From positions 160,267,398 to 160,331,397 of the forward strand of contig CM068825.1 in NCBI GenBank assembly GCA_028554795.2: a stretch of 64,000 bases of DNA, written 5' to 3'. Below, one piece after another: positions 2,484-22,716 of the stretch. Below the pieces are notes generated by a model, which was not told the DNA's origin, searched no databases, and was given only the letters and a program-made list of their open reading frames with translations. A program made the translations under genes and the position numbers. Every line of letters begins with the position of its first letter. The stretch's first letter is position 1. The DNA is from Sinohyriopsis cumingii (lineage: Eukaryota > Mollusca > Bivalvia > Unionida > Unionidae).

Positions 2484-2804
2484 AGTAGTGAAGGGGGGCA
2501 CTATACGTACAATGGGAATTAGCATTAAAAACACCCTTGGGGCACTATACGTACAATGGAAATTTAACATGGAGAAAAATCGTGGGGCACTTTACGTACA
2601 ATGGGAATTTAACATGGCGATAAATCGTGGGGCACTTTACGTACAAGGGGAATTTAACATGGGAATAGAGTTTGGGCTTGTTTAGGGACAAGGGGAATTT
2701 AACATGGAATTTTTTTTTAAAAAAAAATTTTTAAAAAAGGGGTAGGCAATTCAAAAGACTATCTCTTTTCGAGAAATATGGCTGGCCCTGAAAAGGGCCT
2801 TTGG
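2484..2804 (+). repeat. Left terminal inverted repeat of inner Polinton
   Basis: Matches the reverse complement of 22396-22716 almost base for base, with small length differences only in the A/T runs near 2705-2740. Internally it holds four to five imperfect direct repeats of about 45 bp (starting near 2495, 2539, 2584, 2629 and 2675) built on GGGGCACT-TACGTACAA and GGAATTTAACATGG. Its inner edge contains the histone-type stem-loop at 2784-2799. Confidence 0.95.
2759..2799 (-). terminator. Histone-type 3' stem-loop and U7-like downstream element
   Basis: On the minus strand GGCCCTTTTCAGGGCC (2799-2784) forms a 6-bp stem with a TTTC loop, the metazoan replication-dependent histone mRNA form. 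AGCCA follows, then CGAAAAGAGATAG (2771-2759), like the purine-rich element bound by U7 snRNA. It begins 16 nt after the stop of the gene at 2815-3396 and lies within the inverted repeat. No AATAAA is seen in its place. Confidence 0.8.
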
Positions 2805-2814
2805 CTTTCTTCTT

Positions 2815-3396
2815 CTATTTCCTCCATCTTCTCATCCAGCCCCTAATCTTTCCCCAAATTCCTTTTTTCTTCTTCTTTTCATTTTCCGGTATCCAGTCTG
2901 GGTGACCCATGGCTCGGAACTTCTGTTGGATTTTTATCCAGTTATTGTTCAGTCTCTCATATTCTTCTTTTTTCTTTCTATTCTCTTGTTCTTTTCTATC
3001 TTTTGCCCACCTGTCCTTAATTTTCTGCACTTCTTCCTCTATTATCTTTTTCATCTTTTCTTCCGCTTTCTTTAGTTGTTCAATGCCCCTTTTCACGAAC
3101 TTCCACTCTGACCATTTCTCTAGTTCTTCTAAATAGCATCTCACTGCTTTTACTTTGTCCATAGACTCTTTTATAGTCCCCACTCTTACATACTCTGGTT
3201 TAATCAATCCTCTCAATCTCTTAACTTCTTCCTCTATCATCTCCTCTATCATCTTCCTCGCTAATTGTAGTTCATTGACATAGTCAAGACTTTTTCTCAA
3301 CCTCCATTCTCTTTCTATCCTTTCAATAGTGTACTCTCCATCCATCATCCAAAAATAAACATTTCTTAAGTCATTGAACAACGCCGACACTTCCAT
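2815..3396 (-). CDS. Charged coiled-coil protein with basic amphipathic tail
   Basis: 193 residues from ATG 3396. Long Glu/Lys-rich helices dominate (residues about 40-65 and 85-145), including an ARKMIEEMIEEEV segment that resembles parts of the two next genes. The C-terminus is strongly cationic and Trp-rich (GIWGKIRGWMRRWRK), suggesting membrane or nucleic-acid contact. I recognise no known family. It is the leftmost gene, transcribed outward, with TATA-like TATAAGAA and two copies of the shared promoter motif upstream and a histone-type stem-loop 16 nt after the stop. These signals make it a credible gene despite low complexity. Confidence 0.75.
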   Translation of the reverse strand: MEVSALFNDLRNVYFWMMDGEYTIERIEREWRLRKSLDYVNELQLARKMIEEMIEEEVKRLRGLIKPEYVRVGTIKESMDKVKAVRCYLEELEKWSEWKFVKRGIEQLKKAEEKMKKIIEEEVQKIKDRWAKDRKEQENRKKKEEYERLNNNWIKIQQKFRAMGHPDWIPENEKKKKKGIWGKIRGWMRRWRK

Positions 3397-3444
3397 CTTG
3401 TATCTGTTATTCCGTAGAATGGTTTGAACGAAGAATACTGTGGG

Positions 3445-3555
3445 TTCTTATACGAAAAGCGCAGACGTGAAGGAAAACATCCCCCTAAGAACATAAAATG
3501 GATCTTACCTAGATCATGACCCAACAACGCGCGAACGTGAAGGAAAACATCCCCC
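3445..3555 (-). promoter_or_regulatory. Promoter block: TATA-like box plus two copies of shared motif
   Basis: Minus-strand TATAAGAA (3452-3445) lies 49 nt before the ATG at 3396. Immediately upstream, 3461-3485 and 3531-3555 each carry GACGTGAAGGAAAACATCCC-type sequence (plus-strand reading; the second copy has AACGTG). The same block precedes the genes starting at 4161 and 5047 at nearly the same spacing, so a transcriptional role is likely. Confidence 0.65.
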
Positions 3556-3767
3556 TACTTTTTTCATTTCATATAATATAACCCAAACTATACTCTCCAC
3601 ATACGCTAAGAAACAATAAAGAAACCCATAATCTACTATTCACACTAACTTACTTTATTAGTTACAAACACAAACACAAACACACAAACACATACACTTC
3701 CACTATTAATAAAGAGTTAGTGTTTATATTCACACTACTCTACCTACACACATTGGCAAATTGATCG
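3556..3767. other. AT/CA-rich spacer between cassettes
   Basis: No ORF. Contains ACAAACACA runs and a TTAGTG-rich segment. Most of it aligns with 4361-4627, showing that the spacer was duplicated together with its neighbouring gene. It ends in ATTGGCAAATT, which also precedes the stem-loops at 4653 and 21304. Confidence 0.6.
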
Positions 3768-3808
3768 TTATTTCTTTTCTAGAGTATTGGGTAGCCCTGA
3801 AAAGGGCT
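3768..3808 (-). terminator. Histone-type 3' stem-loop and U7-like downstream element
   Basis: Minus-strand AGCCCTTTTCAGGGCT (3808-3793) followed by ACCCA and, 10-15 nt on, TAGAAAAGAAATAAC. The ACCCA flank matches the classical animal histone signal. It starts 30 nt after the stop codon of the gene at 3838-4161. The first and last stem pairs differ from the copy in the inverted repeat (A-T instead of G-C), a compensatory change that keeps the stem. Confidence 0.82.
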
Positions 3809-3837
3809 GTTTTGTTTGGAACTTCATGGGCACCTGG

Positions 3838-4161
3838 TTAATGGTGGCACCTTCCAGGCCTGGCGCCACATACACATCTTATCCCCCAGTTACTTTTTAC
3901 CTTTTGGGGGGAGAGAGCAGAGGCAGGATATGTCGCTTCAGAATCCCAATTTTCACTCTCTGGGATTCTGAAATTTTTTCTTCTCTCCTTTTCCTCCTCC
4001 TCTTCTTTATATCTTCTCTCCTCCTCTTCTTTTTTTCTTCTTTCCTCCTCTCTTATCCTTCCCTCCTCGACAATGGCTTCAGCGGCCAGTTCATTTAATA
4101 TGCGCCTGGCATATTCCAGATGCACATGAAGTTCCAACAGTTTCTCCAGTCTCGTGTTCAT
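3838..4161 (-). CDS. Small Glu/Arg-rich coiled-coil protein
   Basis: 107 residues from ATG 4161. Residues about 5-30 form a helix (LEYARRILNELAAEAIVEE) similar to segments in the flanking genes. Residues 33-60 are an uninterrupted Glu/Arg/Lys helix. The C-terminus has a short Cys/Arg/His-rich stretch. No known family is recognised. TATAAATT 50 nt upstream, the shared promoter motif, and a histone-type stem-loop after the stop support a real transcription unit. Likely a diverged duplicate of its neighbours. Confidence 0.65.
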   Translation of the reverse strand: MNTRLEKLLELHVHLEYARRILNELAAEAIVEEGRIREEERRKKEEEERRYKEEEEEKERRKNFRIPESENWDSEATYPASALSPQKVKSNWGIRCVCGARPGRCHH

Positions 4162-4211
4162 TTTTGGTGTTGATCAATCAACAAGGGTAGCTGGACTGCC
4201 GAACGACTTTC

Positions 4212-4251
4212 AATTTATACTGAGAGCGCGGACGTGAAGGAAAACATCCCC
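4212..4251 (-). promoter_or_regulatory. Promoter block: TATA box plus shared motif
   Basis: TATAAATT (minus, 4219-4212) followed upstream by the shared motif at 4228-4251. The motif begins 67 nt from the ATG at 4161, against 65 and 69 nt in the sister genes. A second, degraded copy (GCGGACCTAAAAG...) lies at 4340-4360. Confidence 0.65.
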
Positions 4252-4287
4252 TAATAACATAAAATTCATCTTACCTATATCATCAAC

Positions 4288-4331
<44 letters not shown>

Positions 4332-4627
4332 AACAACGCGCGGACCTAAAAGAAACACTCACTCACTTTTTATGCTACCCATCACTATTTTAAAAATTTT
4401 TTATAAATCACTTCAATAGACTATCCACATACTCAAAGCAATCCAATCTAATCCCAAATATACACCTCAAACACTAAGATAAGATATCATTTTAATCTAC
4501 TATCCACACCAACTTACTTTTAGCTCTTACTAACACTAACACACAAACACATACCCTCACATTTTTTAAGAGAGAGTTAGTTTTTATATACACACTACTC
4601 TACCTACTCACATTGGCAAATTAATCG
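4252..4627. other. Spacer with 42-base A tract, duplicated from neighbour
   Basis: No ORF. An uninterrupted run of 42 A lies at 4289-4330, at the point where the homologous spacer near 3520 has only CCCAACAACG, so the tract expanded after duplication. The rest aligns with 3556-3767, including the ACACAAACACATAC run. Confidence 0.65.
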
Positions 4628-4668
4628 TTATTTCTTTTCTAGAGTATTGGGTAGCCCTGAAAAGGGCT
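4628..4668 (-). terminator. Histone-type 3' stem-loop and U7-like downstream element
   Basis: Minus-strand AGCCCTTTTCAGGGCT (4668-4653), then ACCCA and TAGAAAAGAAATAAC. It lies 29 nt after the stop of the gene at 4697-5047. Stem, loop and downstream element match the copy at 3793-3808, as expected of duplicated cassettes. Confidence 0.82.
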
Positions 4669-4696
4669 GTTTTTTTGTTTGCTATGGCATTCTTTT

Positions 4697-5047
4697 TTAG
4701 TTTCTAAGAATGCGATGTCCTCTGAGGATAGACTTTCTGGCAATAGGTCTGCTTCTTCGGAAAGAGAAGAAGAACTCTTTGGTGTCGATACGGCAATCGA
4801 CAAAGCCTCTGTCAGGTTCAGGTTGCTGTTGTTGCTGCTGTTGCTGCTGTTGTCTCTGAAGTCTGTACTTCTCTGTCCATTCTTCTTTTTCCCTGTTCAC
4901 TTCTTCTCTGAAGAGCTCTTCTATTAGGTCTTCAGTGATTTTTAACATTCTCACATTCTCTATTTCTTCTGGCTTCGGTATCAGACTGTGTCTGACCCTA
5001 TGCAAATTCACGTAGGCTTCGTTGAGCTTAGCTAGTTTGGAGCACAT
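4697..5047 (-). CDS. Small charged protein with polyglutamine tract
   Basis: 116 residues from ATG 5047. An upstream in-frame ATG at 5167 would add 40 residues, but the shared promoter motif lies between the two, 69 nt before 5047, so the shorter form is preferred. The N-terminal half carries LNEAYVNLHRVRHSLIP and LKITEDLIEELFREEV, like its neighbours. A run of ten glutamines follows, and then a tail without known features. A histone-type stem-loop follows the stop. Function unknown. Confidence 0.65.
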   Translation of the reverse strand: MCSKLAKLNEAYVNLHRVRHSLIPKPEEIENVRMLKITEDLIEELFREEVNREKEEWTEKYRLQRQQQQQQQQQQPEPDRGFVDCRIDTKEFFFSFRRSRPIARKSILRGHRILRN

Positions 5048-5099
5048 CTTCTTAGGAGGATGAGTCGACAATGGATGGTTAGACTGGGAACAACCCCGG

Positions 5100-5140
5100 T
5101 TCTTAAAGTTAAAGCGCGGACGTGAAGGAAAACATCCCCC
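5100..5140 (-). promoter_or_regulatory. Promoter block: TATA-like TTTAAGAA plus shared motif
   Basis: The motif at 5116-5140 matches the copies at 3461 and 4228, and a weak TATA-like TTTAAGAA lies at 5107-5100. The spacing to ATG 5047 matches the sister genes. Confidence 0.6.
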
Positions 5141-5367
5141 ACACGGTTTTCGAGCCGCAACGTTCATGAGAGGGATAGTAAGAAATGAAAGAGCATCAAT
5201 CCAACATTCTTATAGCTAAACAAAAGACAAAGGCATTTTTTTCAAAACACAACATTTTTTATTTAAAAATCACTTAACACTAAACAACAACATTTTTAAC
5301 AATAATCCAACATTATAACATCAAACAATTTTCTTCAAATCACAAACATTTGTTCTTCAAATACTAA
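5141..5367 (-). other. Spacer with poly(A) signal of the protease gene
   Basis: AT-rich, no ORF beyond the extension of the previous frame. Minus-strand AATAAA at 5263-5258 lies about 105 nt after the protease stop and is the probable poly(A) signal. The homologous AATAAA is kept in element A at 24275-24280. Confidence 0.6.
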
Positions 5368-5928
5368 CTATTTTGAACAAGGCTGACAACGTTGTGAATG
5401 AAATTGTGATTTCCACTGTTGGAAATCATTAGGCCATTGATGGACACTACGTTTCCTAGCTTGAGACAAAAGATAAGCATAATGGTCACAAAACCATCGG
5501 TCTACTTTCACATCGTTTCTAGCAGAAGAACGAGGATCGAAATGAGTCACTAAATGTTCTAAGGAATAGCCCAGGCTGCGATGATGCAGAAAATACACAC
5601 AATATTGTCCACACACCAAGGAATCTGTGCCTTGTAATTTCACATTATTGAATCGGGTGGTTTGAGCATTTCTTCTCATAAAGTCAATGATATCGTCTTC
5701 CAAAGGGGGCAATCCGTACGAATCGAAATATTCCACACATCCTTCTTGAGGAAAGTAGATGGCTACCCAGTGGGTTCCTGGGAGATGACTGTCGTCCGTG
5801 TTGATCACGTAAGCTTGATGGTCTTTAGGTTTGCGATGAGGGAGTTCATCTTTAGCACAGACGACAGGATTCCAAGAAGCCGTATACGAACTGTGGTTCA
5901 AAAGGTAATAAAGTTCCCAGGTATCCAT
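5368..5928 (-). CDS. Adenain-like cysteine protease (virion maturation protease)
   Basis: 186 residues. The fold family is the Ulp1/adenovirus protease clan. The visible catalytic set is His53 (GTHW), Asp69 (YFDSYG), Gln99 (KLQG) and Cys106 (VCGQYC), in the order and spacing of adenain. In adenoviruses the enzyme cleaves capsid and core precursors; in Polintons it is taken to mature the capsid. It is encoded next to the conserved small protein and MCP, in the usual Polinton late cluster. The length is a little below adenain (about 200). The sister copy in element A is almost wholly deleted. Confidence 0.95.
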   Translation of the reverse strand: MDTWELYYLLNHSSYTASWNPVVCAKDELPHRKPKDHQAYVINTDDSHLPGTHWVAIYFPQEGCVEYFDSYGLPPLEDDIIDFMRRNAQTTRFNNVKLQGTDSLVCGQYCVYFLHHRSLGYSLEHLVTHFDPRSSARNDVKVDRWFCDHYAYLLSQARKRSVHQWPNDFQQWKSQFHSQRCQPCSK

Positions 5929-5953
5929 TGATTTGTGTGTGCTTTTTTCTTCT

Positions 5954-6451
5954 TCACAGGTAATAATAAGTTGTCAATTCGATCCTGACTTTTTGCTTGA
6001 AAATGTCTGACGAATAAACGGTTATTCGTTCTGTTTCCTCACTCTGATTCAGGAGAGCTTCGATACGATGGATCTCTTGAGTGGTTAATGGTGGACAAGA
6101 ATGTTCACGCAAGTCTTTATACCACTGGTGCAACACGTCTTTGTTCGAGATGAGACTCCAAGCTTCGTCCAGATACTCGTCCAATTTTTCTTCTTGACTT
6201 AACATCAGGCATTTATCGTGTTGAATTTGACTGGGATGATCGTTTTGACATCCATAGCAATTTTTCTTGATCAATTCCGTCATTTTGTCGACCAAGTGTT
6301 TGGCAAAACAGGAGACTAAATGGGCTTCTTGTTCTGGCCATCTCGACTTCATCATGACAATTTCTTCGTCTTGGGATTCTCCTTCCACGGTCTCCTCACA
6401 TTCCATGTCCAAAGTTTCTTCACTTTGTAAAGAGGGATAACAGTCTTCCAT
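5954..6451 (-). CDS. Conserved Polinton protein with Cys/His motif
   Basis: 165 residues. It has an acidic N-terminus (about 1-35), then a helical region with a Cys/His motif around residues 85-105 (YGCQNDHPSQIQHDKC) that recurs in proteins next to MCP in other invertebrate Polintons as I recall them. The spacing could bind a metal. Function unknown; position between MCP and protease suggests a virion or assembly role. Element A carries a relative (23547-24029) in which this motif has been deleted. Confidence 0.75.
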   Translation of the reverse strand: MEDCYPSLQSEETLDMECEETVEGESQDEEIVMMKSRWPEQEAHLVSCFAKHLVDKMTELIKKNCYGCQNDHPSQIQHDKCLMLSQEEKLDEYLDEAWSLISNKDVLHQWYKDLREHSCPPLTTQEIHRIEALLNQSEETERITVYSSDIFKQKVRIELTTYYYL

Positions 6452-6456
6452 GGCTT

Positions 6457-7782
6457 CTAATAATCTAGAATGACTTCTCTTAAACTGTTGATTTCTATCG
6501 TATTGTCAAATTCTGCATACAGGATGACGTTCACTGTGTTCCCTGCTTCCAGTGGACTCGCAAACTGAATTTCCACACGAATCTGGCCAGATTTTATAGG
6601 GTGGAAATGTCCCTCGTCGCTGCCTTGGTCTGGAGTGAAATCGAAAGCCCACAAAGCATAGCCTCCGTCATAATCGTCGTACTCAATGCCGTGACTGGTG
6701 TTGGTTCCTAACTGGCCGGTGGCTTCGTACAGGGACAAGTACGATCTCAAGTAATTCTTCTGGGCAAAGTTAGGCTCGAAAGGTCGGGTACACAAGGTCT
6801 TGCCATCGCGACTGACTTCGATCTTGGACACATTGTAATGCTTAAACTCAAAAGGATTTTCGTTGTGGACTCCGTTGAAGGCTGTATTCTTGACGATACC
6901 AACAATCAAACGCTTCGGTAACTGTCCTTGGAACAGATGATCTTCGATCATGGATCGCTGTCCAGCAGGAATGGTGAAGGTTTTTACTTCTACGCGTCGT
7001 ATGGGATACTTGGCGGTTGTTCTGCTTAACGTTTGACTGATATCGTTTCCCACTTTAGGTAACACTTCTACGCGACGCACGTAGAGCTTGGCTTCTTGGA
7101 TAACAGTTTTGTATTCATTGTTATGGGCCATCAAATGGAAAGCGGCACTGCTACGATTCAGTCTCAGACGGATATCCACTCCGTTCAGCAAATACTTTTC
7201 TTGTAACCACATGTCCAAATGCAAACGATCCATCAGTTCTAAACTTCGCCCTTGCAGAATTTTAGTTCTACGTGTGTTAAACCCCACATTGTGAAGATTG
7301 CCATCTTCTGTCAGGGCTGTGTCGGTAAACGTGTTTGCACCGGCCGTGTCAGGTTTCCATAGCACGCAAGCATCCAGATGAGTGTTCTTGGCTTCTTTTC
7401 CGTACGTCAAGAGATTTTCCAGGTAGGCGCGATACGGGTATGTATCCATGCTGCTACTGACTAGTTTGTTATTCAAGTACAAGTCCACTTCACTGAACAA
7501 GGAATGCATGAAATTGTTGACGGGCGCTACCCTATCATTGGCTCCAGGATTGGTGTTGTCAGTTTTGATCACTTTGACTTTCAAATACAGGTAACTGCTA
7601 TTCAGATCGATGTAATCTTCGGGTTGTCCTTTGATTTCGAACTCGATGGGAGCTGATTCCGTCAATGAGGAGACGGGATGAAATTCCACCCACTGGGATT
7701 CTTGCATCGTCATCATGGTGGGGGGCATGGCAAACATATCCAGTTCCGTCTTGGAACAAGCACATGACTCTCGGTGCATCAT
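6457..7782 (-). CDS. Major capsid protein (double jelly-roll hexon homologue)
   Basis: 441 residues from the first of two adjacent ATGs at 7782. It resembles Polinton and adintovirus major capsid proteins: an N-terminal segment with Cys and MPPTMMTMQESQW, the DLNSSYLYLKVKV strand, NFMHSLFSEVDLYLNNKLVSSS, and a C-terminal segment with DFTPDQ and hydrophobic strands ending in ILDY. Such proteins form trimeric pseudo-hexameric capsomers of an icosahedral shell. The frame is intact. It ends 5 bases before the next gene's ATG. It is the homologue interrupted by element B itself in element A, so the insertion hit a relative's capsid gene. Confidence 0.93.
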   Translation of the reverse strand: MMHRESCACSKTELDMFAMPPTMMTMQESQWVEFHPVSSLTESAPIEFEIKGQPEDYIDLNSSYLYLKVKVIKTDNTNPGANDRVAPVNNFMHSLFSEVDLYLNNKLVSSSMDTYPYRAYLENLLTYGKEAKNTHLDACVLWKPDTAGANTFTDTALTEDGNLHNVGFNTRRTKILQGRSLELMDRLHLDMWLQEKYLLNGVDIRLRLNRSSAAFHLMAHNNEYKTVIQEAKLYVRRVEVLPKVGNDISQTLSRTTAKYPIRRVEVKTFTIPAGQRSMIEDHLFQGQLPKRLIVGIVKNTAFNGVHNENPFEFKHYNVSKIEVSRDGKTLCTRPFEPNFAQKNYLRSYLSLYEATGQLGTNTSHGIEYDDYDGGYALWAFDFTPDQGSDEGHFHPIKSGQIRVEIQFASPLEAGNTVNVILYAEFDNTIEINSLREVILDY

Positions 7783-7794
7783 TTTTTCTGTGTC

Positions 7795-8214
7795 TCAATA
7801 ATCGAAAACGTCTAAGTCTCGAACGGTTTTTCTTTTCTTGGCCTTTCTCGCTTGAAGTCTGGTGAAAGGGTGTTTTCTTCTTCGTCGTCTCTTTCTGCCT
7901 TGTCCTTGCTGAATGCCTGACTCGGTAGCGTGCAGGGCATTTATAGGTGTGTCTCGTCGACCCAAAATGTCTTTGCCCGTTTGCAGCAAGACATTTTTGC
8001 CTGCCCTCATGAAGGCTTCTTTAGGGTTTTGTTTGTCGATGATGACATTTTGGAGAAATTCTTTGCCTTGTGTCAGTGCCGCATCTTTCAAGGCGTGCAA
8101 TCCGCGTGTCACCATCGGTTTCAACACTGGGGCCACCGAACGAAAGGCCGATTTTAACATGTCTCCTAAACCGTGTCCTCGCTGTCGAGCCATCCCTTGG
8201 TACACTGGATACAT
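7795..8214 (-). CDS. Basic capsid-associated protein (pVI/pX-like)
   Basis: 139 residues. The N-terminal half is an amphipathic glycine-containing helix region (GHGLGDMLKSAF, then ALKDAALTQGKEFLQ). The C-terminal half is highly basic with GRKRRRRRKHPF and KAKKRKTVRD. The layout resembles adenovirus minor core and membrane-lytic proteins, but I cannot show homology. It lies between MCP and minor capsid with only 3-12 bases between genes, implying joint late expression. A TATA-like box (about 8301-8308) lies in the upstream gene. Confidence 0.75.
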   Translation of the reverse strand: MYPVYQGMARQRGHGLGDMLKSAFRSVAPVLKPMVTRGLHALKDAALTQGKEFLQNVIIDKQNPKEAFMRAGKNVLLQTGKDILGRRDTPINALHATESGIQQGQGRKRRRRRKHPFTRLQARKAKKRKTVRDLDVFDY

Positions 8215-8217
8215 GAC

Positions 8218-9153
8218 TTACGAGTCGTGAGAGAACCGTTTTCGAAAATGGAGTTTCACCGTGACTTTTCCTTTGGTGAATGGAATATTTTGTCCCAAAT
8301 CTCCTTTTATAGTAATGTTGACCGTGTCCAAATACGACTTGCTGACCGGCAAATAGTGAGGATGGACAAATTCGCGGTGAACGTGATAAGTGTTTCCACC
8401 TTCCTCGTCAGCGTTTGTGGCAGAATCCACTTTGAAAGGAATGACACGCAGTAACGGCACGGAGGTGTGTCCCACCACGTTGTATTCCACCACATCGGAA
8501 TACACAAAGATCAAATTCAGTCCTTGGTTCAGTTCTACCGGGAAACGAAAATACCTCGCAAAAATATCGTTGTCGGAAATGACTGGCAATTCGTTTTTCT
8601 TCATCATGACCATTCTCATCTCCGTGTCACCGCCCAATATGTCAAACAATTCAGGACAAAATAAGAAAGACATGAATTTTTTGGACCCCTCAGAAAATTT
8701 CATCAGAAAGCGACGAGCTATTTTGTGGTATTCCAGGGTGACACTTTTTTGGACATTACTCAAAGCTTTATGGAACACGCCATTAAACCTGGAGGCTATG
8801 GCGCTGACCAAATGATGACCACTGAAATAATAGCCTGGGAGAATGAACAAGTTGTAGGTGGTCGTTTTAGTTTTGTCATCATAGGTTTTATTGGTAGATG
8901 TGCCAATCTTATCCAACTCCTCTTGCAATTGTTTGTCATGAACTTCCACCTTAAACCAATTTTGCCGGGCAGTGATATTGTGGACTTGGGTCGGGTGAAT
9001 CATTTCTACTAAAGCCACTTCCCAATGGGCTTCGTGATCTAACTGGATGGCTTGAGGTAATTTGGCCGTGTAACAGCACAACGTGTTGTGGGGAAACACC
9101 TCCATGGAACTGTCACTGGGTAAGGTTAAGTAAAATTGGTTTTGGTGACTCAT
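8218..9153 (-). CDS. Minor capsid protein (penton-like single jelly roll)
   Basis: 311 residues, intact. The N-terminus (FYLTLPSDSSMEVFPNNTLCCYTAKLP) followed by WEVALVEMIHPTQ is typical of the minor capsid protein of Polintons. Several beta-rich segments follow, including YYFSGHHLV and QGLNLIFVYSDVVEYNVVGHT, and a C-terminal RKRF. It is expected to form pentameric vertex capsomers. Its ATG overlaps the stop of the membrane-protein gene in an ATGA arrangement. Confidence 0.9.
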   Translation of the reverse strand: MSHQNQFYLTLPSDSSMEVFPHNTLCCYTAKLPQAIQLDHEAHWEVALVEMIHPTQVHNITARQNWFKVEVHDKQLQEELDKIGTSTNKTYDDKTKTTTYNLFILPGYYFSGHHLVSAIASRFNGVFHKALSNVQKSVTLEYHKIARRFLMKFSEGSKKFMSFLFCPELFDILGGDTEMRMVMMKKNELPVISDNDIFARYFRFPVELNQGLNLIFVYSDVVEYNVVGHTSVPLLRVIPFKVDSATNADEEGGNTYHVHREFVHPHYLPVSKSYLDTVNITIKGDLGQNIPFTKGKVTVKLHFRKRFSHDS

Positions 9154-9569: not shown

Positions 9570-9574
9570 GATGG

Positions 9575-10687: not shown

Positions 10688-10710
10688 TTTTTATTTTTTG
10701 TGTTGGTGTG

Positions 10711-11412: not shown

Positions 11413-11461
11413 GGGGTTGTCAGGGGTAAATTCTGAGATCTTGGGACTTCCGAAGGCCTTT

Positions 11462-13741: not shown

Positions 13742-13747
13742 AATGTT

Positions 13748-14975: not shown

Positions 14976-15210
14976 AATTATATACACTGTTTTTGGAATC
15001 GTTGGGTGGCGACCAATAGCCTCGTTTAACTTTGTGTCTAATGTAATATCCACTCATAATCAGTCTTCTTGTACTTTGGAACATAGCATAATTTAAAAAC
15101 GGACGAATCACTTTGAGTTTGCGTTTCACTTGTATTTTGATCAGCTCTCGGTAAATGCGTTCTCTCAACTCCACAGGCAAAGCACGAATGTTCTCTTGTA
15201 AAGTATCCAT
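14938..15210 (-). CDS. F-box-like paralog 2, short
   Basis: 90 residues. The first 32 are almost identical to the paralogs (LPVELRERIYRELIKIQVKRK), after which it diverges and stops early, so it may be a truncated duplicate. The 3' end overlaps the start of the next paralog by 38 bases in another frame. Function unknown. Confidence 0.5.
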   Translation of the reverse strand: MDTLQENIRALPVELRERIYRELIKIQVKRKLKVIRPFLNYAMFQSTRRLIMSGYYIRHKVKRGYWSPPNDSKNSVYNYGYFTRVHFGLA

Positions 15211-15222
15211 GAATAGGTCATA

Positions 15223-15678: not shown

Positions 15679-15706
15679 GAACAGATTATTATGGTAAGAA
15701 GTTACT

Positions 15707-16345
15707 TCAATGTCTCGGTCCTACTAAGGGTAAGTAATGACAATTCGGTGACCATCGAGCATGTTCAACGTAGGCCGAATCTTGCGGTTCCCAGTGGTGA
15801 AGTGACACACCGCAACTGAAGCACTTGACTTTATCTCCTTCGCCCAAGTAGAAAAATCCGGCTCTGGCTAATTCTTCGGGGGTCGGTCCTCCCAGATACT
15901 TTGGCCATTTTCCTTTGAACGATTGAAGACGATTTTCAAAGTCGCAGTATTCCGACAAACGCACAGGGAACGAATATTCGTCTTTCACAGGTTCGTTTCG
16001 ATGAGGGTTGAGTGACATGGGTAGGAGTTTGCTCAGGGCTGGATGACATCCGTAGGGGGGTAGACGTGAAGGTGAACATTCCCCTTTAAAACGAAACCCA
16101 GTAAAATGTCCAAGAGGACGAGCGGCATCACTTTCGCATCCCACAGGTTTGACACGCACAGCATCACTTTCCATGATAGGGGTAGGGGTACTAAAGTTCC
16201 CATGATGCTTTACGGCATCGCTCAGGTCACAAGGTACAGCATCGTACCCATCGCAAGGCTCACAATCGCATTCCACTTCCGAAGCCTCACACTTGAATTG
16301 TGCCTTTCTAAACAACTTGTTCTGTGTTTCTCTGAAAGTATTCAT
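15707..16345 (-). CDS. BIR-domain protein (inhibitor-of-apoptosis-like)
   Basis: 212 residues. The BIR domain (about 122-203) has the zinc ligands Cys-x2-Cys-x16-His-x6-Cys exactly spaced, with FKGKWP and GFFYLGEGDKVKC before it. Residues 1-120 are not recognised and contain short repeats (ESDAVRVKPVGC and ESDAARPLG). No RING is present. IAP proteins block caspases or regulate ubiquitin signalling; viral ones delay host-cell death. A TATATAAAAA box 56 nt upstream of ATG 16345 supports this start; an internal ATG at 16018 would give just the BIR domain. Confidence 0.88.
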   Translation of the reverse strand: MNTFRETQNKLFRKAQFKCEASEVECDCEPCDGYDAVPCDLSDAVKHHGNFSTPTPIMESDAVRVKPVGCESDAARPLGHFTGFRFKGECSPSRLPPYGCHPALSKLLPMSLNPHRNEPVKDEYSFPVRLSEYCDFENRLQSFKGKWPKYLGGPTPEELARAGFFYLGEGDKVKCFSCGVSLHHWEPQDSAYVEHARWSPNCHYLPLVGPRH

Positions 16346-16377
16346 CTTGTTTGCTCGGTCTTGGTAGTCACAATGAA

Positions 16378-19300
16378 CTATCGATTTTGCCTAGGGTTCC
16401 TTTTTATATACAGACCAATACCGACGTAACCGTACGGTAAGGTGAAATGATTAGGAAGTCGAACTCGCTTCTGGTATACAATTTGATAGATTTTTTCCAA
16501 GGGTCGACTGACGATGTGGTGAGTGGGTAAACGTACAATCTTGTTCGGTTGATAGGTGGTCACTTTAAAGTTTCCATCCTCTCCCGATTGCAAGGCTTCT
16601 TTCAATACCCCAAAGTTGACCACTCGACTGGTACGATAATTCAGAGTCAATCCTTTCACTTTGCACGTCGTGTGCACTTCTCCTTGTTTGTCACGGTATT
16701 CGTAGCCGTAATTTTTGGGACCGCCACTGACGAAACTTAAAATCTTGTCGTCGGGATGCTCGTCTGTCCAGGCTCCTAAACGGTCTCCTTCGATGTTAGG
16801 GTGATGTTGAATCGGGTGATGGATGTAAATGCAACTGTCTGTGTCAAAGTACAGGACGCGTTCCCCTAACAGTTCTAAAGCCTCGTACAATTTTAAGCGA
16901 GCATGGGCTGTCACGTAAGCCGCAATGATGACATTTCCAAAAGGGTCGTCTTGTACAAAGTCCAGATCTTCTTCGTAATTGACCAAGATCAAATTCTCTC
17001 GAACGACGTCCACGTGTTTCATGTATTTGGTTTTGTCGTGAATCATCTGGAAGTAGCGGGAAGGTTCTGTCAAATATTCCGTCTTGGGTAAACACGGTCG
17101 TTGTGCCATTTTACCCCATAAGCAATTTAACATCACTTTGGCAAACGATCGCCTGCCTTCGTTTTTCTCGATGTGGTCTAAAGTGATGCCTTCTTGTTCG
17201 TAGTATTTCTCTTTGAATTTTATTTGGTCTTCGGGAGTGTGACACCAGGAAGGATAGCCGCTGGCTTCTTGCTTCAGTTTCAAAAAGGCATCCACGTAGT
17301 CTGCGAAAATGCCTTTCTGCGTGGGGTCACCCTTGTGGTATTGTTGTGTCTTGGGAAAGTGGCAAATTTCGTACACTTCTAACAGTTGGTATCCCATGTC
17401 CAGAGCTTTGAACAATTCTACGCTGACCCAGGTTCCCGTCAAGGCCCGTTCTTCCTGGCTGTGATGGCAAGGTTGGTCTTGGTTGCACGTTTCGGCACAA
17501 GTACGGCACAAGGGAAACATCAGTTTGCCTTGACAATGGTGAGGTAAGACGGGATGGTATAGGTTCGTGGGAGGCAAAACTTTACACTTGATCAAGCCTT
17601 CGTATTGTCGAATGTTTTTCAGGTCGATGTGTTCCGTCAGCAATTGCGGGTGCCCTACAGGAAAGCGACAATATTTGCACACGTAGGGATACAGCGAACA
17701 CACGTCCAAGTATTTGATTTCTTCTCCTTTCTCTTCGTCGGCTTGGTACAGCAAACAGGTGGCATTGGTCCTTCCTCCGTACAAACTATCCCTCGGGTTC
17801 AGCGGGTCCACGAACTGGTAACTTTCCACGAGGCGTTTAAACTCGGGATCGGTTTTCATACGGTGATCGTACTCGTGTTCCCACATTTCCACCACTTGGT
17901 ATCCTTGCTGTTCCAACTTTAGGCGCCGCTGACAAGTGTCCTGGTACAAGTCTTCCATGGTTCGTTGCAACAACTGATTTTTAGTGCCACGGTCAGGGTA
18001 ACAGACGGGACATCCGTGAAATAAGCAACCGTTAAACTCGTACACGATCTTGGGGTTTTCTAAGTCCCAGCCATCGACCGAATACGTTCCGATGGTCTTT
18101 TCGCCCCCTCCGTTGCGGGCATGCTGAATCCACTTGTCTTCCTTGTCGCACAAGTAATGTAACCAACGTAGGGCTTTGACCGAGTATTGACGTTTGACAA
18201 AGTGGGTCGTTTGAGGACTGATGACAGCCACGGTCTTTTCAGGCATGAATCGTTGTCGATACACTAAGGAACACGCTTTGGCAATGGTGCAAGCTTCTTT
18301 CAAAGGATCGACCCCTCCGTGTTCCATGAACAGTTCTCGAAATTTTCCACAGCAACGCCGTAAAATGTCCACGTCGGAACGACAATACTTTAGCATTTCT
18401 TCCTGAAAGTCGAAAGGGTCCGAGGCGTGAGCCTGGTACCAAGCGTAGAAAGCTTTTCGTTGTTCGGTACGCATGTTGTCGGGGTCGTAATAGTGAGCCT
18501 CAGGTAAATGGGGTAGAACGGCGTGTTTATTGGCTTCCGTATTGAAAAAGTGTGGAAAGTACCCTTTAGCCATTTCTGTCATTCCAAACGTTTTAGGCAT
18601 TCGACTCAAAGGCATGGCCAAATAGCTCATCGAATCTTTAAACTGCACTTGTCCCACTTGCATGAAAATGATTTTGGCTCCGTTCAAAGTCACTTTAGGA
18701 CGTTCGGTGCCTTGTTCCGTATAGTACCTCAAAAGAAACTGTCCATCGTATCCGGAGAAATTGTGAGCCATCACCGTGGCATGACGATGACAATCTCCGT
18801 AACGTTCGATGTCCTCTTGGCTCCACGTCTTGTCGACGGGGTCTAAGACCCATTGGGCAAAATCGGCTAACGTGTTTGGTCCCCGAAAGATTTTTTCACG
18901 CCCTCCGGGTATCTTGCTGCAGTGAGGGCAATGACTGAAGATAGGTTCTTGAATGCACTTCTCGCACGCTCGATGAGCCACGCAGAAATTAGGAATGTGA
19001 ATGCCGGTCTCTTGCATGCATTCGAAATCGAAAAAGATGAAATTGCCTTTCTTCTTGTGACCGTCCTCTTTCTCTGGTGGGGGTTGGTATTTTTGCACGT
19101 AACATTGGTGTTCCAAGTCCACGATGTGGTGACAAATGTGACATTTTTTCTTTCCTGAACATACGTGTGCCTTGGTATTATTGGTACGTATGACTTGTTC
19201 ACACGTAGAGCACAATCTTAGCAGTTGACAAGCGCATTTCTTCTGTGAACCTTGCGTTTTCAGATGTTGTTGGTAACAGGTAGGGCTGACAAACGTGCGC

Positions 19301-20445
19301 AGACAAGTTGAACAAGGCACTGGTTCTTCGCTCAGACAGGGTGAAGAGGCCAAACATCCTGTGCATTTCGATCCACAATGCTTGTGTTGCTCTCGATTGT
19401 TATAACCATGGTCACATTTCTCACAGTAATAACTGTATTTCAGGAATCCGGTGATACTGGTAATGGTATCGAAATGTTCATCTTGATGATAAAGGTGAAT
19501 GTATTTTCCGTCCTTAAAGTCTTGGCCTCGAAACAACAGAGGTCCGCGCACTTCTTGAGGGTGCACTTTCAAGGTGTATCGTGGAGCTAGGGCATCTTGC
19601 AATTTTTGCATCTCAGGAATACCACAGGGTGTGTCTTTGGACAGGCCGGCTTGTCGTAACAGGAGTTCTGCTTCGCTTCGTTGTTTGGCTCGATAGGAAC
19701 GTTGAATAGTGTTCCAGGTTCTTTTCCATTCTACCGTGTCGTTCTTGTTGGCATAGGTTCGTCCCACCACGATGGCACGGGCTAAACACATCTGGTCATG
19801 AGGATTGTGAATTTGGACAAGGCTACGCTTAATGCTGCGAAGGTCGTTCACCAATAACATCTTTTTGCGTCCAGTCCCTTGAGGAGGAGAGACGTGGGTC
19901 ATGTCCAATGTGGCTTTTCCATCGGTGATGTCAAACTGGTCATTAGATTGTTGCACGTGTTGAATCTTGTCCATGACTTTGGAAGCGGTCAATTCTGCAG
20001 GGGTGCTAAACTCGATCCAAACAGGGGATTTCAAACCGTCGTGTTGTATGGAAAGTCTCAAGCGATCGTCTTCTTTGGGTTGACATTGTTGCTTGAGTGC
20101 AGTGAGCAAAGAATCCCACACCTCAGTGATGAACACTTCTGCTTTCTCTAACGGCACTTCAGCCTTGAAATCTTTAAACTTCACCGTGTATTTGTAAGCC
20201 GTGGTTCTAAATTTTCTAGAGGAGCGCTTTTCCGTCTCTCGAATGGAATAGTATTTTTCAGGGTTGACTAAGGGTGGTGAACTTGTTTTAGAGGGTTCTG
20301 ATTCTGGTTCACTCATGTCCTCTTCAAAATCACTGGCATGAATTTGTGCCAAGATTTCAGCTCTGGTTCGAGGCGATAGATCACGTTTCTGCCTCTTACT
20401 TTCTTCTTCTTCTTCTTCCTTCTCAAATGAATTAGATCGTTTCAT
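16378..20445 (-). CDS. polB: Protein-primed family B DNA polymerase
   Basis: 1355 residues. Exonuclease motifs: FIFFDFE (about 468), HNFSGYDGQF (about 560) and YCRSDVDIL (about 687). Polymerase motifs: A, DVCSLYPY (about 914); B, KVMLNCLWGKM (about 1103); C, YFDTDS (about 1199). N-terminal of these are a basic/acidic tail and a Cys/His-rich zinc-ribbon area (about 335-460). This is the Polinton/adintovirus polymerase, expected to copy the linear element from a terminal protein; the precursor for that may be the N-terminal part. Motif B has Cys where Ser is usual (NSLWGK in relatives). Intact. Confidence 0.95.
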   Translation of the reverse strand: MKRSNSFEKEEEEEESKRQKRDLSPRTRAEILAQIHASDFEEDMSEPESEPSKTSSPPLVNPEKYYSIRETEKRSSRKFRTTAYKYTVKFKDFKAEVPLEKAEVFITEVWDSLLTALKQQCQPKEDDRLRLSIQHDGLKSPVWIEFSTPAELTASKVMDKIQHVQQSNDQFDITDGKATLDMTHVSPPQGTGRKKMLLVNDLRSIKRSLVQIHNPHDQMCLARAIVVGRTYANKNDTVEWKRTWNTIQRSYRAKQRSEAELLLRQAGLSKDTPCGIPEMQKLQDALAPRYTLKVHPQEVRGPLLFRGQDFKDGKYIHLYHQDEHFDTITSITGFLKYSYYCEKCDHGYNNREQHKHCGSKCTGCLASSPCLSEEPVPCSTCLRTFVSPTCYQQHLKTQGSQKKCACQLLRLCSTCEQVIRTNNTKAHVCSGKKKCHICHHIVDLEHQCYVQKYQPPPEKEDGHKKKGNFIFFDFECMQETGIHIPNFCVAHRACEKCIQEPIFSHCPHCSKIPGGREKIFRGPNTLADFAQWVLDPVDKTWSQEDIERYGDCHRHATVMAHNFSGYDGQFLLRYYTEQGTERPKVTLNGAKIIFMQVGQVQFKDSMSYLAMPLSRMPKTFGMTEMAKGYFPHFFNTEANKHAVLPHLPEAHYYDPDNMRTEQRKAFYAWYQAHASDPFDFQEEMLKYCRSDVDILRRCCGKFRELFMEHGGVDPLKEACTIAKACSLVYRQRFMPEKTVAVISPQTTHFVKRQYSVKALRWLHYLCDKEDKWIQHARNGGGEKTIGTYSVDGWDLENPKIVYEFNGCLFHGCPVCYPDRGTKNQLLQRTMEDLYQDTCQRRLKLEQQGYQVVEMWEHEYDHRMKTDPEFKRLVESYQFVDPLNPRDSLYGGRTNATCLLYQADEEKGEEIKYLDVCSLYPYVCKYCRFPVGHPQLLTEHIDLKNIRQYEGLIKCKVLPPTNLYHPVLPHHCQGKLMFPLCRTCAETCNQDQPCHHSQEERALTGTWVSVELFKALDMGYQLLEVYEICHFPKTQQYHKGDPTQKGIFADYVDAFLKLKQEASGYPSWCHTPEDQIKFKEKYYEQEGITLDHIEKNEGRRSFAKVMLNCLWGKMAQRPCLPKTEYLTEPSRYFQMIHDKTKYMKHVDVVRENLILVNYEEDLDFVQDDPFGNVIIAAYVTAHARLKLYEALELLGERVLYFDTDSCIYIHHPIQHHPNIEGDRLGAWTDEHPDDKILSFVSGGPKNYGYEYRDKQGEVHTTCKVKGLTLNYRTSRVVNFGVLKEALQSGEDGNFKVTTYQPNKIVRLPTHHIVSRPLEKIYQIVYQKRVRLPNHFTLPYGYVGIGLYIKRNPRQNR
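16401..16410 (-). promoter_or_regulatory. TATA box of the BIR gene
   Basis: TATATAAAAA on the minus strand, inside the 3' end of the polymerase gene, 56 nt upstream of ATG 16345. Confidence 0.65.
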
Positions 20446-20579
20446 CTTGAAAGCAAAAAGTCAAATGACTCAAGTTCAAACACCATAAACTACTTTATAG
20501 TCATAGCAGACCAGCGTATATAAAAGGGTGTGTGTCTTGTCCTTTCACTATTCATTTCACTCTCAAGCCGAGCACAACG
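20446..20579. promoter_or_regulatory. Bidirectional promoter between polB and zinc-knuckle gene
   Basis: 134 bp between divergent starts. Plus-strand TATATAAAAG (20517-20526) lies 54 nt before ATG 20580; minus-strand TATAAAG (20499-20493) lies about 48 nt before the polymerase ATG. No shared motif of the left cassettes is present. Confidence 0.7.
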
Positions 20580-21050
20580 ATGGAAGAGACTGACCAGATG
20601 GAACGTTTCGTTAGAGCTTTGCGAGGGGTCATTAGAAAATTCTCTTCAGACCAGCCGACAGACTACTCTCCTTCCTTTCGAGATAAAAGTCAAGATACTT
20701 GCTATATCTGTCAGAAGAAAGGGCATTGGTCTTCAGAGTGTCCAGACCGTCAAAAAAGAACAAAAACAGGGACTAAAAAAGACAAAAGTCAAGATACCTG
20801 TTATTATTGTAAAGAAAAAGGACATTGGTCTCCAGATTGCCCAAAAAAGAAACAAGAGGAATCAGAAGAAAAGAAGGATTCTTCAGAAGAAGAGAGGGAT
20901 TCTTCGAAAGAAGAGAGGGATTCTTCAGAGGAAGAAAGCAGACAGGTGAAGAAAAAGAAACAGGAGAAGAAAAGAAGAAGGGAAGAAAGTGAGGAGGAAG
21001 AAGAGGAAAAGAGTGTGACGGTGAAGAAATTCAAAAAACAGAGAGACTAA
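20580..21050 (+). CDS. CCHC zinc-knuckle protein with acidic Ser/Glu tail
   Basis: 156 residues from ATG 20580. Two perfect CCHC knuckles, C41-C44-H49-C54 and C74-C77-H82-C87, are joined by a basic linker. The C-terminal half is alternating Ser/Glu and Lys/Arg (DSSEEERDSS repeats). Such knuckles bind single-stranded nucleic acid, as in Gag and CNBP. It is the only long ORF of B on the plus strand besides the small 22148 gene. A role in replication or RNA handling is possible. AATAAA at 21137-21142 follows. Confidence 0.8.
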   Translation: MEETDQMERFVRALRGVIRKFSSDQPTDYSPSFRDKSQDTCYICQKKGHWSSECPDRQKRTKTGTKKDKSQDTCYYCKEKGHWSPDCPKKKQEESEEKKDSSEEERDSSKEERDSSEEESRQVKKKKQEKKRRREESEEEEEEKSVTVKKFKKQRD

Positions 21051-21279
21051 ACAAGGAGAAAAGAAGAAGTCAATGAACTTTTTATTATAGTGTTGTGTTG
21101 TGAATTGTGAATTGGATTGTAAAAAATGGAGAAAAGAATAAATTAATGATATAAGGTAAGTGTCTTTGAGTTTTGATTTTAAAATAAGAAGCTACACTCA
21201 CGCACTCATACACAGACACGTACTATAAGGGTAAAAATGGGTAGGGGTTTATTTTTGAGTTATTGGCAAATTGAAATTG
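21051..21279 (+). other. 3' spacer with AATAAA, no gene
   Basis: AT-rich. AATAAA at 21137-21142 is the probable poly(A) signal of the zinc-knuckle gene. The right part ends with TTGGCAAATTG, shared with the spacers before the other stem-loops, and belongs to the next gene's 3' flank on the opposite strand. Confidence 0.6.
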
Positions 21280-21319
21280 TATTTCTTTTCGAGAAATGTG
21301 GGTGGCCCTGAAAAGGGCC
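21280..21319 (-). terminator. Histone-type 3' stem-loop and U7-like downstream element
   Basis: Minus-strand GGCCCTTTTCAGGGCC (21319-21304) with an A/T-rich 5' flank and ACCCA 3' flank, then TCTCGAAAAGAAATAC. This is the closest of the five to the textbook histone signal. It starts 28 nt after the stop of the gene at 21347-21928. Confidence 0.83.
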
Positions 21320-21346
21320 TTTTTTCTTTATGGTGCAGGGGTGAGT

Positions 21347-21928
21347 TTAAGCAATCAACTTTAACTGCCTTATGCCTTTGCCACGGCCAAGGCCTACTTC
21401 TGAACTGCGTAATGCTGATGATGATTGGGTTGAAATCACTAAGGGTGGTACGGTAGGCTTAGTCACAGGGTTGACGTGTTTAGCTCGGGAAGGTCGTATT
21501 CTCTTCGGTCGTAATAAAGAAGTCTGATACATTTGTTTCAGACTTCTTAACTCCGCTAAAATGTCCAACAGTACCGTGACCGTTTGATTTTCACCCTCTT
21601 GTTTCTTTGCTGCTACTACTTCTTCTTGCTGTTGCTGCTGTTGTTTTTTTCTTACCTCTTCTTCTTCTTGTTGCTGTTGCTGTAGGAGAAAAGCCTGTTC
21701 CGCTTCCTTTTGTCGTTGTATAAATTTCTCCAATTCTTCTTTTTGTCTCTGTCTAAAATTTTCCACTTGCGGTAATGAAGAAGGTAACGCAGGTTCCGGA
21801 ACAAATTCTTGCGAGGAGAGAAAATCCACAAAATCCCAATTCACCTCTTCTGAAAGTAAGTCCGAGTTCCCTTGGGCAGTCTCTCCTGCTGGTGCACCCC
21901 AATGGATCGTTTTCTGAGTTTCCGTCAT
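21347..21928 (-). CDS. Gln-rich coiled-coil accessory protein
   Basis: 193 residues. The N-terminal 60 residues are acidic and polar; residues about 60-120 are a Glu/Gln/Lys coiled coil with polyglutamine runs. A leucine-rich segment (TVLLDILAELRSLKQMYQT) and a basic tail follow. The single EEVNWDFVDFL segment is acidic-aromatic, like a transactivation domain; this is conjecture. The promoter has TATATAG and a palindromic CRE, and a histone-type stem-loop follows the stop. No known family. Confidence 0.7.
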   Translation of the reverse strand: MTETQKTIHWGAPAGETAQGNSDLLSEEVNWDFVDFLSSQEFVPEPALPSSLPQVENFRQRQKEELEKFIQRQKEAEQAFLLQQQQQEEEEVRKKQQQQQQEEVVAAKKQEGENQTVTVLLDILAELRSLKQMYQTSLLRPKRIRPSRAKHVNPVTKPTVPPLVISTQSSSALRSSEVGLGRGKGIRQLKLIA

Positions 21929-21975
21929 GTTGAATCACTGTCGCATAGATTGACTGCACACAAGCGCTAGCGAAT

Positions 21976-21997
21976 CTATATAGACTACGTGACGTCA
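21976..21997 (-). promoter_or_regulatory. TATA box and CRE-type palindrome
   Basis: CTATATAG at 21976-21983 lies 48 nt upstream of ATG 21928, and TGACGTCA at 21990-21997 is a perfect CREB/ATF site. Its position close to the TATA box suggests control by a host bZIP factor. Confidence 0.6.
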
Positions 21998-22095
21998 CAT
22001 ACTGCACTCTTACGATTGGATGCGGGCTAACTGAATTCTGTAACGCGTGTTTGGATTGGTGAATGAACTCAATCCGTTTCAATCCTTTCTGTCCC

Positions 22096-22103
22096 TATAA
22101 ATA
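22096..22103 (+). promoter_or_regulatory. TATA box of rightmost gene
   Basis: TATAAATA 45 nt before ATG 22148, divergent from the promoter of the gene at 21347-21928, with about 220 bp between the two starts. Confidence 0.6.
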
Positions 22104-22147
22104 AGCGCCGTTCACTGCATTGATTCACCTATTCTCGGAGCCTCAAC

Positions 22148-22378
22148 ATGTGGACAGACGTTGAATCTTCAACCCTTGTGTCAACAATGATGTTCAGGAC
22201 GGACATGCTCATGTATGTCCGATCCAAGTGGACCGTTGTCCACAGGACCAACAGCAGCCTGTGGATAAGAAGAGTCTATATAGAGAGACAAGGTTGCCTC
22301 AAGAGGACTCTGATGTATGGCCCTGCTGTAAGACGAAGTTTGAGGACAAGAAAATGTCGCAAATGCCCTCTATGTTAA
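22148..22378 (+). CDS. Small Arg/Cys-containing protein, unknown
   Basis: 76 residues. No family recognised; the sequence is rich in Arg, Ser, Thr and Val and ends CRKCPLC. The coding call rests on context: a TATA box 45 nt upstream, outward direction, and a histone-type stem-loop 23 nt after the stop, exactly as for the four other terminal genes. It may be the right-end counterpart of the left cassettes. Confidence 0.55.
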   Translation: MWTDVESSTLVSTMMFRTDMLMYVRSKWTVVHRTNSSLWIRRVYIERQGCLKRTLMYGPAVRRSLRTRKCRKCPLC

Positions 22379-22395
22379 GGGCATATTAACATAAA

Positions 22396-22716
22396 CCAAA
22401 GGCCCTTTTCAGGGCCAGCCATATTTCTCGAAAAGAGATAGTCTTTTGAATTGCCTACCCCTTTTTTTAAAATTTTTTTTTTAAAAAAAATCCCATGTTA
22501 AATTCCCCTTGTCCCTAAACAAGCCCAAACTCTATTCCCATGTTAAATTCCCCTTGTACGTAAAGTGCCCCACGATTTATCGCCATGTTAAATTCCCATT
22601 GTACGTAAAGTGCCCCACGATTTTTCTCCATGTTAAATTTCCATTGTACGTATAGTGCCCCAAGGGTGTTTTTAATGCTAATTCCCATTGTACGTATAGT
22701 GCCCCCCTTCACTACT
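22396..22716 (-). repeat. Right terminal inverted repeat of inner Polinton
   Basis: Reverse complement of 2484-2804. Contains the same 45-bp imperfect repeats and, at its inner edge, the stem-loop that ends the rightmost gene. Ends CACTACT followed by the target duplication. Confidence 0.95.
22401..22441 (+). terminator. Histone-type 3' stem-loop and U7-like downstream element
   Basis: GGCCCTTTTCAGGGCC at 22401-22416, followed by AGCCA and CTCGAAAAGAGATAG. It is the mirror copy of 2784-2799 and serves the gene at 22148-22378. Confidence 0.8.

Follow-up and report, generated by a model that had tools for sequence, protein, structure and literature searches.

Histone-type 3′ ends on five terminal genes of a Polinton in the bivalve Sinohyriopsis cumingii

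The window analysed here is a stretch of 64,000 nucleotides of the genome of Sinohyriopsis cumingii (contig CM068825.1, positions 160,267,398 to 160,331,397) and contains a young Polinton. Its terminal inverted repeats are 324 nt long and 99% complementary, its ends read AGTAGTGAAGGG / CCCTTCACTACT, and it is bordered by a 6-bp target duplication, TGTGGG, at 2478-2483 and 22717-22722. Inspection with Pfam revealed a type-B DNA polymerase (DNA_pol_B_2, E = 5.3e-42), a retroviral-type integrase (rve, E = 2.4e-14) with a chromodomain (Chromo, E = 1.1e-7), an A32-type packaging ATPase (Pox_A32, E = 1.3e-7, 31.8 bits with a cut-off of 22.8; best stretch 26 residues) and zinc knuckles, together with an adenovirus-type protease that is below threshold (Peptidase_C5, 16.4 bits; cut-off 21.3). 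Polymerase, integrase with chromodomain, ATPase, inverted repeats and 6-bp duplication are features that the element has in common with Polintons/Mavericks and adintoviruses. Near its termini lie five short genes, each a single open reading frame, three at the left end on the minus strand and two at the right end, one on each strand. These five genes end in hairpins that resemble the 3′ end of replication-dependent histone mRNAs, and they are the subject of this report.

The hairpins had been picked out in a preliminary description of this DNA, and their coordinates and strands were confirmed (Table 1). All five are in the sense strand and consist of a 6-bp stem and a TTTC loop, followed by N14 and then AAAAGA, which is the downstream purine block that had been described. 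The distance from stop codon to hairpin, put at 16-30 nt before, was close; counted from the coordinates it is 15, 29, 28, 27 and 22 nt, that is 15-29 nt. The existence of two stem versions related by a compensatory change is real, but the change is limited to the outermost pair (G-C to A-U). The Rfam model of the histone 3′ stem-loop (RF00032, gathering score 34 bits), which had been proposed as a check, places three of the five hairpins above the cut-off and two just below it, with E-values from 9.6e-9 to 6.4e-5, and gives no sixth match in the 64-kb window up to E 1. When both strands of 200 first-order shuffles of the element were scanned, a relaxed version of the hairpin core appeared a single time. 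The hairpins at 2784-2799 and 22401-22416 lie inside the 324-nt terminal inverted repeats and are therefore copies of one sequence that serves two different genes. The core genes of this element (polymerase, integrase, ATPase, protease) are without the hairpin signal; AATAAA follows some genes, for example at 5263 past the protease and at 21137 past the zinc-knuckle gene. A box, AATTTGCC or GAATTGCC, is common to all five ends slightly past the downstream element (2745-2752, 3755-3762, 4615-4622, 21265-21272 and 22448-22455).

Table 1. Features of the young Polinton, in window coordinates
Feature	Position	Strand	Details
Histone-type hairpin GGCCCTTTTCAGGGCC	2784..2799	-	3′ of gene 2815-3396; RF00032 35.6 bits at 2804-2759(-)
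Downstream element TCTCGAAAAGAGAT	2761..2774	-	belongs to hairpin 2784-2799
Histone-type hairpin AGCCCTTTTCAGGGCT	3793..3808	-	3′ of gene 3838-4161; RF00032 31.0 bits at 3813-3768(-), E 6.4e-5, below 34
Downstream element TCTAGAAAAGAAAT	3770..3783	-	belongs to hairpin 3793-3808
Histone-type hairpin AGCCCTTTTCAGGGCT	4653..4668	-	3′ of gene 4697-5047; RF00032 31.0 bits at 4673-4628(-), below 34
Downstream element TCTAGAAAAGAAAT	4630..4643	-	belongs to hairpin 4653-4668
Histone-type hairpin GGCCCTTTTCAGGGCC	21304..21319	-	3′ of gene 21347-21928; flank ACCCA; RF00032 41.2 bits at 21324-21280(-), E 9.6e-9
Downstream element TCTCGAAAAGAAAT	21281..21294	-	belongs to hairpin 21304-21319
Histone-type hairpin GGCCCTTTTCAGGGCC	22401..22416	+	3′ of gene 22148-22378; RF00032 35.6 bits at 22396-22441(+)
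Downstream element TCTCGAAAAGAGAT	22426..22439	+	belongs to hairpin 22401-22416
Hairpin gene	2815..3396	-	193 amino acids; charged; coiled-coil look by eye; no Pfam match above cut-off
Hairpin gene	3838..4161	-	107 amino acids; no Pfam match above cut-off
Hairpin gene	4697..5047	-	116 amino acids from likely start 5047; longer ATG at 5167
Hairpin gene (MTETQK family)	21347..21928	-	193 amino acids; Q-rich
Hairpin gene (MWT family)	22148..22378	+	76 amino acids; TATAAA at 22096
H2B-type element GATGTTTTCCTTCACGTCCGCGC	5114..5136	-	gene 4697-5047; 23/24 nt to host H2B promoter, 0/200 shuffles
H2B-type element	4226..4248	-	gene 3838-4161; 6 nt before TATAAA (4214-4219); 23/24 nt to host H2B promoter
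H2B-type element	3459..3481	-	gene 2815-3396; 6 nt before TATAAG (3447-3452); 22/24 nt to host H2B promoter
Further H2B-type copy, more diverged	3529..3551	-	score 36, 0/200 shuffles
H4-type element TTTCTTTTAGGTCCGCGCGTT	4335..4355	-	upstream of gene 3838-4161; 21 nt identical to host H4 promoter
Divergent promoter between the right-end hairpin genes	21929..22147	.	cAMP-response element (CRE) TGACGTCA, CCAAT-type boxes, TATA
Young Polinton	2484..22716	.	20,233 bp; nested in an older related Polinton, whose flanks align to the inside of the young element
Left terminal inverted repeat	2484..2807	.	
Right terminal inverted repeat	22393..22716	.	

In histone genes, as set out in excerpts of PMC7026596 and PMC9756948, SLBP binds the stem-loop, the U7 small nuclear ribonucleoprotein (U7 snRNP) pairs with a purine core downstream of it, which is AAAGAG in mouse, and CPSF73 cleaves the RNA in between. 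The host genome that was searched (2.90 Gb in 1,138 contigs) has its core histone genes in tandem repeats of about 8.3 kb with H4 followed by H2B, the order also given for the histone repeat of Lucina pectinata in an excerpt of PMC6210712. The 3′ hairpins of the one repeat read are GGCCCTTTTTAGGGCC for H3, GGCCCTTTTCAGGGCC for H2B and GGCCCTTTTTAGGGCC for H4; that of H2B is identical to the Polinton hairpin over 16 nt, and those of H3 and H4 differ from it by one loop base. Each of the three genes has CTAGAAAAGA, with its AAAAGA starting 14 nt past the stem; at the H4 end there is an earlier AAAAGA at spacing 3, and the spacing of 14 was counted by eye. The two ends scanned with RF00032, H3 and H2B, score 35.9 and 38.2 bits, and a second H2B copy on another contig (L107) carries the same signal. 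A clearly different signal at the histone genes of the host had been named as a possible objection. It was not found: hairpin type, spacing and downstream element at H3, H4 and H2B are those of the Polinton genes. What differs is the product, since the Polinton genes encode non-histone accessory proteins of a mobile element: none of the five proteins has a Pfam family match above cut-off (for gene 4697-5047 the longer frame was scanned), and a histone domain was not detected by Pfam up to E 1.

The hairpin might have its function at the DNA level, in replication or transposition of the element for instance, and its likeness to histone 3′ ends would then be incidental. Two copies do lie within the terminal inverted repeats, but three are internal, and every one of the five follows a stop codon closely in the sense strand and has the 14-nt spacing and the downstream element of the host, so that we consider this explanation extremely improbable.

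The likeness to histone genes is also found upstream of the left-end genes. GATGTTTTCCTTCACGTCCGCGC is present there in four copies, of which those at 3459-3481 and 3529-3551 have one base changed, and its counterpart in the host H2B promoter is GATGTTTTCCATCACGTCCGCGCT. The alignments over 23, 23 and 22 of 24 nt were reached in none of 1000 shuffles for any of the three genes, and when the whole element was compared with host H2B, these four copies alone scored 36 or more. In the host H2B gene, 29 nt separate the element from the TATAAA that follows it; in two Polinton genes the distance to the TATA box is 6 nt. Gene 4697-5047 has just a TATA-like TTTAAG, and the other two left-end genes have a clear TATA-type box. 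The longer ATG of gene 4697-5047 is upstream of the promoter element, and the gene therefore most likely starts at 5047 and not at 5167. The H4-type match (score 43; 0/200 shuffles, maximum of the null 34) sits between two genes with H2B-type elements. The Polinton shares with the tandem histone repeats of bivalves H2B- and H4-type promoter elements as well as the 3′ signal. There is a weak likeness of the host H4 promoter to the H2B-type elements, equalled by 19, 24 and 73 of 1000 shuffles, and the host H3 promoter has no match in the element. When H3 was compared with the divergent right-end promoter, 536 of 1000 shuffles were as good in the strict test; with gaps allowed in a looser test, the values for the two strands were 0.014 and 0.12, and a relationship is not claimed. 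A region upstream of a core gene (16346-16495) was better than 1000 of 1000 shuffles in the pairwise comparison with H2B (score 31); this score was reached in 4 of 200 shuffles of the whole element and the match is therefore treated as chance.

Genome-wide, the H2B-type motif was found 30,508 times and the reversed pattern not once. The matches were not sorted by kind; among those listed first, groups of two or three, spaced similarly to those of this element, are common. At three motifs per element, the count would correspond to some ten thousand elements, full or partial, in the host genome. Counted once per locus and strand, the cores occur 49 times (H2B-type) and 32 times (H4-type) at 85 loci (L020-L104). 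The abundance of the motif, with Polinton-like spacing at the listed places, could also be read in the opposite direction, the host histone repeat having received its H2B and H4 promoter elements from Polintons. However, the stem-loop and the downstream element occur in the histone genes of several animals (Rfam model; excerpts of PMC7026596 and PMC1924863), which makes transfer from host to element the simpler direction for the 3′ end, if not for the promoters, and an origin of the host elements from Polintons appears very unlikely. As an observation in its own right, the 30,508 motif copies and the presence of gene copies that are 100% identical speak of a very large and recent expansion of Polintons.

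In the scan of the host genome with RF00032, 75 of 589,472 first-look candidates were scored and 55 of the 75 were fetched. All 75 reach the cut-off; one of 14 control genomes gave a match, which was below it. All 55 fetched stem-loop matches lie in relatives of this Polinton, with at least 1,723 nt aligned and the longest piece at 74-92%. No histone was seen among the open reading frames upstream of the fetched hairpins (by eye, first 50-60 residues). One locus (L098) has no open reading frame upstream of the hairpin, a few others have short or broken ones, and in L051, whose two longest aligned pieces come from the protease-side and left-end regions, the frame is protease-derived. The list of 75 omits the host histone ends (35.9 and 38.2 bits) and is therefore incomplete, so that the frequency of the signal outside Polintons is not readable from it. 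The 193-amino-acid gene 2815-3396 has at least 150 copies in the host genome that are 94-100% identical. These are the 150 scored out of 13,247 candidates, and the 19 that match at 100% include the copy in this window. Copies of this gene that were fetched by protein match alone are near-identical and have the hairpin in 30 of 30 cases, 28 times exactly and twice with one change. Absence of the hairpin from related Polintons, which would have spoken against the preliminary description, is not what the host genome shows (55/55 and 30/30). Of relatives in other records, the four distant, partial loci that were read are without it, and within the host genome the older Polinton around the young one is without it as well.

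More diverged copies were available for two right-end gene families. The MWT set comprised 18 rows from loci fetched for another reason, sorted by eye, of which two are not gene ends and were left out. The hairpin is present in all 16 gene ends and exact in 14. Although mean synonymous divergence (dS) among them is 1.16 (saturated pairs set to 3), the mismatch is 0.016 in the hairpin and 0.047 in the downstream element, compared to 0.086 in the 16 nt that precede the hairpin, 0.152 in the spacer and 0.204 in the block past the signal. In the MTETQK set, 15 of 38 rows are premature stops or other open reading frames; 17 of the 23 gene ends have the exact hairpin, and 22 anchored ends with a mean dS of 0.098 show mismatches of 0.033 in the hairpin, 0.031 in the downstream element, 0.122 in the spacer, 0.303 in the next block and 0.400 before the hairpin. 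Positions were compared without gaps, by which insertions and deletions inflate the outer blocks; moreover, some copies are decaying fossils, in which hairpin variants are expected.

Among 206 distinct sites found by hairpin likeness (up to two mismatches, or four if a purine run follows), the G of stem pair 2 is kept in 205, the opposite C in 202 and the TTTC loop in 204. This G, at position 7, is needed by SLBP according to an excerpt of PMC10388802. Of 77 unselected sites (L060-L089), 45 have A-T and 32 have G-C as the outermost pair, and none has a half-changed one; this probably reflects the inheritance of two states rather than 45 separate changes.

The hairpins could be hitch-hiking remnants, that is, captured pieces of histone genes that spread with the element while the mRNAs are polyadenylated at a downstream AATAAA. 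The near-match to the host's own genes makes a capture plausible, and AATAAA occurs past two of the five hairpins. However, in one family hairpin and downstream element change slowest in the 3′ region despite far-diverged synonymous sites, the signal is found on several genes with different proteins, and the hairpins in the terminal inverted repeats have no AATAAA after them inside the element. A mere remnant is, for these reasons, unlikely.

The hairpin genes are real genes, with coding constraint in three families: the ratio of non-synonymous to synonymous substitution (dN/dS) is 0.103 for MWT (34 distinct copies, 508 pairs with dS > 0.1), 0.154 for gene 2815-3396 (18 copies, 17 pairs with dS > 0.1) and 0.377 for MTETQK (22 copies, 91 pairs with dS > 0.1). 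Relatives in other sources, all without DNA context, are one for the 76-amino-acid protein (64%) and five for the 193-amino-acid protein (47-56%). The constraint bears on another conceivable role, that of a decoy whose hairpin transcripts titrate SLBP or U7 snRNP and upset the histone supply of the host rather than serve their own genes. Such a role would profit from the abundance of the promoter motif (30,508 copies) and of one hairpin gene (at least 150 near-identical copies); for a pure decoy, though, dN/dS values below 1 and histone elements in three promoters are superfluous. Titration may occur as a side effect, but as the purpose of the hairpins it is quite improbable.

Relatives outside the host genome were sought in viral contigs, where neither the ATPase nor the polymerase nor a 25-row alignment of the 441-amino-acid protein found one. 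Pattern scans of the viral contigs gave one and six stretches. The former (L001) was rejected, having a weak RF00032 match (24.8 bits, below 34) and neither the ACCCA flank nor the AAAAGA element; the latter (L006-L011) have no RF00032 match. Four loci in bacterial metagenome-assembled genome (MAG) records of GTDB (L002-L005) encode a relative of the 441-amino-acid protein. Two of the records are named after a tubeworm or mussel symbiont, and the loci are probably contamination from the animal host. L002 stops 817 nt past its protease-like open reading frame (by eye). In the record of the mussel symbiont a sub-threshold twister-P1 ribozyme was noted about 400 nt past the 441-amino-acid-related frame (L003:11734-11798; 28.9 bits, gathering score 67.2).

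The U7 snRNA of the host was searched with its Rfam model, which found no match and whose control gave none either. With a pattern modelled on the downstream element there were 51 matches, as opposed to 14 with the reversed control, and four of the 51 were read. The two best are antisense Polinton 3′ ends; of two further candidates, L110 was dropped because its match recurs at several listed places and L111 because it lacks a 3′ stem.

Several observations weigh against the view that the Polinton genes are expressed like histone genes. Two of the five hairpins score under the RF00032 cut-off (31.0, cut-off 34), the older flanking Polinton has no RF00032 match in the scan of the window up to E 1, and the four distant partial loci in the MAG records are without an RF00032 hairpin. 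A host U7 snRNA was not located with the Rfam model or among the four of 51 pattern matches read. The two right-end genes have no significant match to the H2B, H3 or H4 promoter in the strict test, and the host promoters were taken from one histone repeat unit. The 206 sites were themselves selected by hairpin likeness, copies share ancestry so that copy counts are not independent events, and the contrast is weaker in MTETQK (hairpin 0.033, dS 0.098). Finally, an AATAAA is found some 50 nt beyond the hairpin of gene 21347-21928 and another some 130 nt beyond that of gene 3838-4161, which makes polyadenylation a possible fallback.

The young Polinton is inserted in the gene for the 441-amino-acid protein of an older related Polinton, which is thereby split into two halves (window 1-2483 and 22717-24371). 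The left half aligns to the young element at 88%, the right flank at 76-83% up to 24371, where strong homology stops; short matches resembling the inverted repeats reappear at about 26221-26600. Relatives of the 441-amino-acid protein number 1,391 with an E-value limit of 0.001, and among the 120 listed the named ones are mostly bivalve F54H12.2-like proteins. In addition, the Polinton carries a gene with a BIR (inhibitor of apoptosis) domain (15707-16345, minus strand; Pfam E = 9.5e-24). Outside the element, a long repeat at 58795-60832 reads as two open reading frames of repeated MTYTYICRSLSFTYV-like units.

Histone-type 3′ ends on five Polinton genes, the interpretation offered in the preliminary description, are supported by these sequence comparisons, and the terminal accessory genes of the Polinton are likely run as replication-dependent histone genes of the host. 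It is also probable, if somewhat less firmly so, that the histone expression programme has been taken over at both ends, with H2B/H4-type promoter elements upstream and the stem-loop and U7 element downstream; these would then be the first non-histone, mobile-element mRNAs of this kind in animals, and the accessory proteins would be coupled to S phase. According to this model, RNA polymerase II would make short transcripts of the five hairpin genes, SLBP would bind the hairpin RNA, U7 snRNP would pair with the downstream element and CPSF73 would cut between the two. The resulting mRNA would have a stem-loop end and no poly(A) tail and would be made and stable mainly in S phase, a timing to which the shared histone promoter elements lend indirect support. 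The accessory proteins would thereby be timed to host DNA replication, and the core genes of the element presumably have ordinary 3′ ends.

In animals, only replication-dependent histone mRNAs are described, in excerpts of PMC6303110 and PMC10388802, as ending in a stem-loop instead of poly(A). Searches of the open-licence literature, judged by the titles and beginnings of abstracts listed, gave no report of 3′ ends of the histone type in any mobile element, Polintons and adintoviruses included, nor of histone promoter elements in Polintons or adintoviruses; the preliminary description likewise gives no earlier report of such ends in these two groups. If the transcripts indeed lack a poly(A) tail, RNA-seq of poly(A)-selected RNA would miss them, and the activity of the element may have been underestimated. 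If the model is correct, a highly multiplied, virus-like element breaks the rule that the stem-loop end is reserved for histones. This would be a new route by which a mobile element follows the cell cycle, and a case of coordination of a Polinton with the replication of its host.

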